Source of the DNA: Pseudanabaena yagii GIHE-NHR1
GTDB taxonomy: Bacteria; Cyanobacteriota; Cyanobacteriia; Pseudanabaenales; Pseudanabaenaceae
NCBI RefSeq assembly: GCF_012863495.1
Contig: NZ_JAAVJL010000001.1
Coordinates: 2,352,001-2,416,000, forward strand
Direction of reading: 5' to 3'
DNA length: 64,000 nucleotides
Shown: piece by piece, positions 14,753 through 16,166 of the stretch
Position numbering within the stretch: the first letter of the stretch is position 1
Layout: every line of letters begins with the position of its first letter
Made by a program: the position numbers and the translations under genes
The notes under the pieces: model-generated
Databases searched by the model: none
Seen by the model: the letters and a program-made list of their open reading frames with translations, nothing else
What the model was told of the DNA's origin: nothing

Positions 14753-15703
14753 TCAAGCTTCTTGGGGTTGAATCACCAACACACGCACTTTGGAATCAGT
14801 TGTGGCAATATCTGAATCTACAGGATCATTTTGATTTTGTTTTAAATCAAGTTTTAATCCCAGAAACTCTAAGGATTGACAGACAAGCTCACGGACTATC
14901 TCTGAATTATCACTTAATTCGGACGTAAATACGATCGCATCCATACCACCTAAACTCATCAGCATAGAACCAAGGCACGATCGCAAGCGGTGAAGATAAA
15001 TATCCAAGGCTTGTTTTGCCCTAGAGTTATCTGTATCAATAGCTGATCCTACGGATCTCGGCTCTGATGAAACCTCAGAAATATTCACTAAACTTGATTT
15101 TTGATCAGCCTCTACCCCAGAATCTGGTTCATTGTCCTTTCGCATCATTTCATTTAAGACGTTGGAATCAACGGAGCCAGAACTATAGTCAATCATCAAT
15201 CCTTCTAAAGGCGTGAATCCAGTAGCCGTATCAATTATTTGACCATTATGAATGGCGGCAAGAGAACAACCATTGTCTAAATTGCAAGTAATCAATCTCA
15301 ACACTTTGATATTACACTCTAAAACTTCAGCAGATTTTTGAGCGCAATAATAATGGCTACTTTCATTCAGTCCATAATGTCTTTTATCAGATTCTACGGG
15401 AAGGCTAGAGAGAGTGGAAGCAGTAGCAAGCTCAGAAATATTTTCTAGCTTATTGTTATCAATCTCGGCACTTTTTAGGGAAGGCTTGTAAGCAATTTCT
15501 TGCCAGTCTAAATCTAACCTTGCACAAATTTCAAAAAATGTATATCGCTCAATTGGTTTGCCAGCAAAAAATCGCCAGATTGGTTGCCGCGTTTTAACAC
15601 CCACTTCAGTGGCTAAATATTCTTGAGTCCAGCCATTGGAATCAAACCGCTTTTTAGCTTTTCTGATCCCTTCTGGTGATGCTTTTAACGATCGCTTAGA
15701 AAT
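14753..15703 (-). CDS. HTH domain fused to degenerate C-terminal half of acetate kinase
   Basis: 316 residues if started at an ATT at 15703. That codon is eight bases after AAGGAG and has no in-frame ATG, GTG or TTG before the homologous region. A start at GTG 15604 would cut the HTH in half. Residues 6-70 match the cyanobacterial HTH found at the N-terminus of NACHT/WD40-type proteins (SLKASPEGIRKAKKRF, GWTQEYLATEVGV, FEICARLDLDWQEI). Residues about 107-316 align with acetate kinase from its middle onward: SSHYYCAQKSAE, NGCSLAAIHNG, TGFTPLEGLM, ALDIYLHRLRS, GGMDAIVFT, EFLGLKLD, SKVRVLVI. Catalytic positions are lost: FHGTSH reads LNESSH, CHLGNG reads CNLDNG, TRSG reads YSSG, GGIGEN reads SELSDN. 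The N-terminal half of the kinase is absent. Inferred to be a regulator built from a dead enzyme. Confidence 0.72.
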   Translation of the reverse strand: MSKRSLKASPEGIRKAKKRFDSNGWTQEYLATEVGVKTRQPIWRFFAGKPIERYTFFEICARLDLDWQEIAYKPSLKSAEIDNNKLENISELATASTLSSLPVESDKRHYGLNESSHYYCAQKSAEVLECNIKVLRLITCNLDNGCSLAAIHNGQIIDTATGFTPLEGLMIDYSSGSVDSNVLNEMMRKDNEPDSGVEADQKSSLVNISEVSSEPRSVGSAIDTDNSRAKQALDIYLHRLRSCLGSMLMSLGGMDAIVFTSELSDNSEIVRELVCQSLEFLGLKLDLKQNQNDPVDSDIATTDSKVRVLVIQPQEA

Positions 15704-15733
15704 AGCAAAAACTCCTTTTCATAATTTAAAAAC

Positions 15734-15784
15734 CAGAGAGATTTTTGAAAGTGTGGCTTCGCCACACTTTCAAAAATCTCTCTG
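15734..15784. repeat. 24-bp-arm perfect hairpin
   Basis: Perfect inverted repeat 15734-15757 / 15761-15784, TTC loop, GC closure. It lies 31 bases upstream of the AckA-like gene start, in its promoter or leader region. Confidence 0.7.
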
Positions 15785-16006
15785 TAATACTTCAAGCTTC
15801 AACAGGCTGTAGTAATACTTTATTGATTCTAGACAAAAGATATTAGCTCTAACGTATATATTTGTAATGAAATCAAACATCTAATACAAATCAAACATTT
15901 GCTAATTAAAATGTATAACTTAAAGAGAAGTGTTTGATTTTAAATCAATATAACCGTCTTAAAATCATCACTTTATAGGCTTGTTTTACATGTCTTTAAT
16001 CTTTAT

Positions 16007-16111: not shown

Positions 16112-16166
16112 AAACAAGAAACTTATGAAAGCGCGGCGAAGCCGCGCTTTCATAAGTTTCTTGTTT
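16112..16166. terminator. 26-bp-arm perfect hairpin
   Basis: 16112-16137 / 16141-16166 with GAA loop closed by GC. It lies 42 bp downstream of the minus-strand GT2 gene stop and ends in a T-run on that strand side, so it may terminate it. The remaining part of the 505-bp gap 15704-16208 shows no gene. Confidence 0.6.

Follow-up and report, generated by a model that had tools for sequence, protein, structure and literature searches.

A Pseudanabaena gene joining an XssQ-type helix-turn-helix to an apparently dead half of acetate kinase, with a conserved non-canonical start codon: a putative self-regulated DNA-binding protein

Background

What might a DNA-binding head do on half of a metabolic enzyme? 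The question is raised by a gene in a 64,000-nucleotide stretch of the Pseudanabaena yagii GIHE-NHR1 genome (the window), whose positions 14753-15703 hold, on the minus strand, 316 codons uninterrupted by a stop, followed by a stop codon at 14753-14755. A sequence-only reading had taken this gene to encode a helix-turn-helix (HTH) protein built on a catalytically dead half acetate kinase, as in a repurposed sensor. That reading gave the span of the open frame correctly, although the first codon is not a canonical start. It made no mention of the AUH class of that start, of operator-like boxes upstream, of the XssQ type of the HTH or of an AckA2 ancestor.

Results and discussion

Architecture of the fusion protein

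The protein begins with an XssQ-type HTH (residues 1-72, 15488-15703 on the minus strand; predicted helices 10-22, 27-34, 40-46 and 53-62), continues through a linker predicted to be mostly disordered (residues 73-106, 15386-15487, minus strand) and ends with AckA domain II, which is probably catalytically dead (residues 107-316, 14756-15385, minus strand). The Pfam Acetate_kinase profile matches residues 92-315 (3.1e-55) and HTH_3 matches weakly; nothing else in Pfam was matched, so neither a NACHT/STAND ATPase module nor a ROK domain was found there, and PADLOC gave no match to the fusion protein. In a PDB profile search with the family profile, residues 170-384 of Methanosarcina thermophila AckA (1g99) aligned to the fusion family. 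As AckA domain II comprises approximately residues 149-387 (PMC11717252), nearly all of it is retained, and the C-terminus of the fusion protein is the end of domain II. Domain I, with N7 and R91, is missing, and the HTH and linker stand in its place. The earlier claims that residues 107-316 follow the C-terminal half of AckA and that the N-terminal half of the kinase has been replaced by a cyanobacterial HTH are thus both borne out.

An AF2 model has the same HTH-like set of helices followed by AckA-like strands and helices, and its best PDB matches in Foldseek are AckA and propionate kinases (E 4e-13). This monomer model, made from a shallow alignment (mean pLDDT 64, with low-confidence stretches at 75-112 and 168-225), is supportive only, but it agrees with the profile alignment in giving the half-AckA fold that the sequence-only reading expected.

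Origin of the two parts

The same genome encodes an HTH-NACHT protein whose HTH shares 61% identity with that of the fusion; for the HTH of a Synechocystis pSYSM NACHT protein the figure is 54%. The gene for the latter sits next to the response regulators in the xss cluster, which identifies it as XssQ. XssQ binds DNA in EMSA and is an activator of transcription (PMC8205485). The recognition segment KTRQPIWRFFAG is common to the fusion protein and the HTH-NACHT protein of the same genome. In the window's genome the HTH-NACHT gene (L128:7180-9495) is near a tyrosine-recombinase-like gene and its product matches PDC-S60, a candidate defence family, in PADLOC (3e-13).

In an ML tree the fusions from 16 genomes form one clade (100/100) on a stem of 0.59 changes per site, sister to AckA2 of genome G021 (100/94), with the AckA of G005 next. 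G021 encodes an intact AckA2, approximately 60% identical to the AckA half, that retains the AckA residues at positions changed in the fusions. By this computation the AckA half descends from a second acetate kinase, AckA2, with intact catalytic residues. A search of 38 family genomes revealed no AckA2 in the 16 that have the fusion, and the fusion may therefore have consumed it. In G021, AckA2 (L038:802-2187) also contains an EF-hand insert, and the neighbouring transaldolase-family gene (L038:11-790) ends in EF-hands that are almost identical to it, as if the insert had been copied from there.

Loss of the active site and retention of the core

Comparison of the 16 fusions with 49 AckA sequences (M. 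thermophila AckA numbering) revealed F179L, H180N, G181E, H208N, G210D, M238I, R241S and G331E in all 16 fusions and G239D in 15. Catalytic H180 and R241 are thus replaced throughout, and four active-site glycines (181, 210, 239 and 331) have become Asp or Glu in 15 or 16 of the fusions. In M. thermophila AckA, changes at G239 and G331 cut activity strongly (PMC4390882). The signature changes described from the letters of the window gene (FHGxSH to LNESSH, CHLGNG to CNLDNG, TRSG to YSSG and GGIGEN to SELSDN) are correct. The accompanying claim that the chemistry has been lost agrees with the replacement of H180 and R241, but the erosion is incomplete, as counterparts of G212, P232 and N335 are retained and those of N211, R285 and E384 partly so (E384 in 11/16).

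The losses are concentrated at the active site, where 2/13 conserved positions are retained vs 49/76 conserved positions elsewhere (Fisher p 0.0015). In the central domain-II helix (segment 295-329) all 13 conserved positions are retained. Taken together, these comparisons support an AckA half that is probably catalytically dead with its fold retained. Since H180, H208 and R241 are lost, four glycines have become acidic and the opposite wall of the cleft went with domain I, phosphates are unlikely ligands. The changes from glycine to acid may seal a surface laid bare by loss of domain I.

Distribution and selection

One scan of genome contigs recovered eight full-length relatives, each in Pseudanabaena or close to that genus. 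Full-length fusions are present in 16/38 genomes of the Pseudanabaenaceae, a group of freshwater cyanobacteria, namely 15 of the 26 within the genus and one from a sister genus; in G012 only a truncated remnant is left, and another ten genus genomes have no fusion gene. None was found outside Pseudanabaenaceae in a 386-genome cyanobacterial sample. The open frame is intact in all 16 fusions. Median dN/dS is 0.145 for the HTH and 0.124 for the AckA half (0.12 over residues 104-316), compared with 0.49 for the linker (residues 77-103); canonical ackA in these genomes gives 0.065-0.098. The gene is under purifying selection and is not decaying. The view that selection has kept the fold therefore stands, and the signs of decay named with it (absence of homologues and a high non-synonymous rate) were looked for and not seen.

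A conserved operon partner was sought, but neighbours are common to close relatives only and the fusion is best regarded as a stand-alone gene. Canonical ackA is also present in all 16 fusion genomes. In G025 only (L060), this gene and the fusion gene are approximately 3 kb apart on opposite strands. The canonical ackA genes of G000 (L002) and G030 (L088) are 97.5% identical while their fusion proteins are approximately 80% identical, which suggests exchange of ackA between species.

A conserved AUH start codon

The codon that aligns with the ATG of the paralogue is ATT (15701-15703, minus strand) in the window gene and ATT, ATC or ATA in 16/16 fusions; it is never ATG, GTG or TTG. In contrast, 18/18 HTH-NACHT genes and 18/18 canonical ackA genes have ATG, as do 8/8 infC genes at the expected place. 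A Shine-Dalgarno sequence, AAAGGAG (15712-15718, minus strand), precedes the ATT by 8 nt, and most homologues have GGAG 8-9 nt ahead of their start. In the window gene no canonical in-frame start occurs before a GTG at codon 34, inside the HTH, and four of the 16 genomes have no canonical start within 45 codons. Because ATT, ATC and ATA are very rare as starts, standard gene callers would truncate the HTH of the fusion.

A true start at the codon-34 GTG is disfavoured: this GTG is present in 12/16 genomes only, and starting there would remove the first HTH helices, although purifying selection acts on codons 2-33 (dN/dS 0.19). An upstream in-frame start was also considered. An internal isoleucine codon of a longer frame would likewise appear as ATT, ATC or ATA, but most genomes have in-frame stops a short way upstream and the spacing between Shine-Dalgarno and ATH varies by 1 nt, both of which disfavour this. 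Translation thus probably begins at the AUH codon. As independent third-base changes are few, selection against ATG is suggested only. In bacteria, IF3 discriminates against start codons that do not end in G, including AUU, AUC and AUA (PMC4611024), and in Streptomyces the GTC start of sigR, conserved in 32/34 species, is IF3-repressed (PMC5472188).

Paired boxes in the promoter

Upstream of the gene are two operator-like boxes, ATGTTTGATTT, as a direct pair 18 bp apart (distal 15888-15898, proximal 15870-15880, both minus strand), and an inverted copy that reads TGTTTGATTT on the plus strand (15931-15940). Within 400 nt upstream of the fusion genes of 16 genomes, 31 TGTTTGATTT boxes were found vs 1.96 expected (≤ 1 mismatch). 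HTH-NACHT promoters are not enriched (3 vs 2.2 expected). No box was found upstream of the fusion gene in G031, G025, G020 and G006, so autoregulation through it would not be universal. The direct pair was searched for in seven genomes. It is at the fusion promoter in six (exact in G000, G030, G022, G008 and G017, with one mismatch in G026) and was not found at that of G011; elsewhere in the seven there is one exact pair (L143, G008 C31:485-512, near a contig end) and a one-mismatch match in a repeat. The paired box is nearly unique to the fusion promoter in these genomes. By motif counts, the XssQ consensus AAGTTNNAC seems an unlikely operator of the fusion gene, as its exact form is not enriched upstream (2 vs 1.04 expected); upstream of HTH-NACHT genes the counts are 4 vs 1.0.

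A conserved element, TTTGATTTnRTTRYAAATATATACATT (15851-15877, minus strand), is followed downstream by a putative -10 sequence, TAGAAT (15826-15831, minus strand), which is TANAAT in most relatives. G000 and G022 each have just two matches to the relaxed form of the element, GATTn(1-6)RTTRYAAATATNNA, one upstream of the fusion gene and one upstream of the HTH-NACHT gene. Such a pattern is in keeping with an HTH-NACHT promoter duplicated along with the HTH, or with shared control.

Near-perfect long hairpins with a GCGAAGC-type loop, which resemble dispersed palindromic repeats, are present at 15736-15782 and 16116-16162 of the window. The former belongs to the fusion gene's 5' leader (approximately 24 paired bases, z -6.4); as it is confined to the window's genome and not kept in relatives, it was rejected as a conserved element.

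A model for the fusion protein and its alternatives

The model we favour, with slightly better than even confidence, is a dimeric, self-regulated DNA-binding protein in which domain II is a dimer scaffold and output is limited by the AUH start. An HTH-STAND (XssQ-like) regulator gene would have supplied the 5' part, probably together with its promoter, and AckA2 the domain II to which this was fused. Domain II would then have lost catalysis, kept its fold and probably become a homodimerisation module; in Salmonella AckA it is the main part holding the dimer together (PMC3475010), although the fusion keeps only around half of the dimer-pocket residues that have been published. The homodimer would set two HTH heads on the paired TGTTTGATTT boxes of its own promoter, and other target sites are probably bound too. 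Output would be kept low by an obligatory AUU, AUC or AUA start, the class against which IF3 discriminates. A more specific version, a clade-specific transcription factor that unites the dead scaffold, control of its own promoter through the paired boxes and obligatory IF3-class gating, is plausible, but we lean slightly against it.

Domain II might alternatively still bind ATP, ADP or acetyl phosphate and signal to the HTH, as ROK proteins do with sugars. Strong selection on the fold, some retained nucleotide-contact residues (G212, N335 and, in 11/16, E384) and the precedent of ROK repressors, in which an HTH is joined to an ASKHA kinase fold (PMC12696579), are in keeping with this. We nevertheless think it improbable, as H180N, H208N and R241S are universal, acidic groups occupy the former phosphate places (G181E, G210D and G331E in 16/16, G239D in 15/16), two of these positions matter strongly in the real enzyme and domain I with PHOSPHATE1 is missing. 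Of the 'repurposed sensor' first proposed, a repurposed, dead and conserved domain remains, while the case for an acetyl phosphate or ATP sensor is weakened; dimerisation is the better supported, if putative, role. Just as improbable is heterodimerisation of domain II with canonical AckA, which would link acetate metabolism to gene control. AckA does dimerise through domain II, the central helix is retained and every fusion genome has an ackA gene, but such co-presence is expected of a widespread enzyme and at several positions the helix is closer to AckA2, not seen in fusion genomes, than to canonical AckA.

A role as decoy or antagonist, in which the fusion contests the operators of the HTH-NACHT (XssQ-like) regulator by a near-identical recognition helix, seems a little less improbable. 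The common KTRQPIWRFFAG and the promoter element restricted to the two genes in G000 and G022 favour it. However, HTH-NACHT promoters show no enrichment of TGTTTGATTT boxes, G008 has the fusion without an HTH-NACHT match and G030 has it without a close 775-aa HTH-NACHT, so that the fusion must be able to work alone. A functionless decaying gene, for which the non-canonical start, the G012 remnant and the ten genus genomes lacking the gene might speak, deserves almost no credence: open frames in 16/16, dN/dS of 0.12-0.15 and new residues fixed in all contradict decay. The self-regulated dimer accordingly remains our preferred working model.

Comparison with known systems

No paper on an HTH-acetate kinase fusion was found with the search terms used, nor any description of a regulator derived from acetate kinase or keeping a single ASKHA kinase lobe. 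As intact AckA2, the fusion and a decayed copy are all found in living relatives, the steps from enzyme to regulator are open to study. With its conserved AUH start, the gene offers a direct test of IF3 control in a cyanobacterial regulator and illustrates how assuming only ATG, GTG or TTG can hide or truncate conserved genes.

The fusion shares the domain II fold with AckA (PF00871, cyanobacterial AckA2 branch) but differs in lacking domain I, in its replaced H180 and R241 and in its N-terminal HTH. It resembles XssQ and the HTH-NACHT STAND regulators in that HTH (54% identical for XssQ, up to approximately 70%) and, for the HTH-NACHT of the same genome, in a common promoter element, but has AckA domain II instead of the NACHT/STAND ATPase and starts with ATH rather than ATG. 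Regulators that combine an HTH with a kinase fold are already known in the ROK repressors (NagC, Mlc), which likewise join an HTH to a relative of an ASKHA-fold kinase; the fusion comes from another kinase family, keeps one of two lobes, has no Pfam ROK match and has an acidic former active site. In E. coli, infC starts with ATT. Like infC and the GTC-started sigR of Streptomyces, the fusion is a regulatory gene, here putatively so, with a clade-wide non-canonical start behind a Shine-Dalgarno sequence; unlike them, its AUH codon stands on a cyanobacterial HTH gene with putative IF3 dependence, in genomes whose own infC appears to start with ATG.
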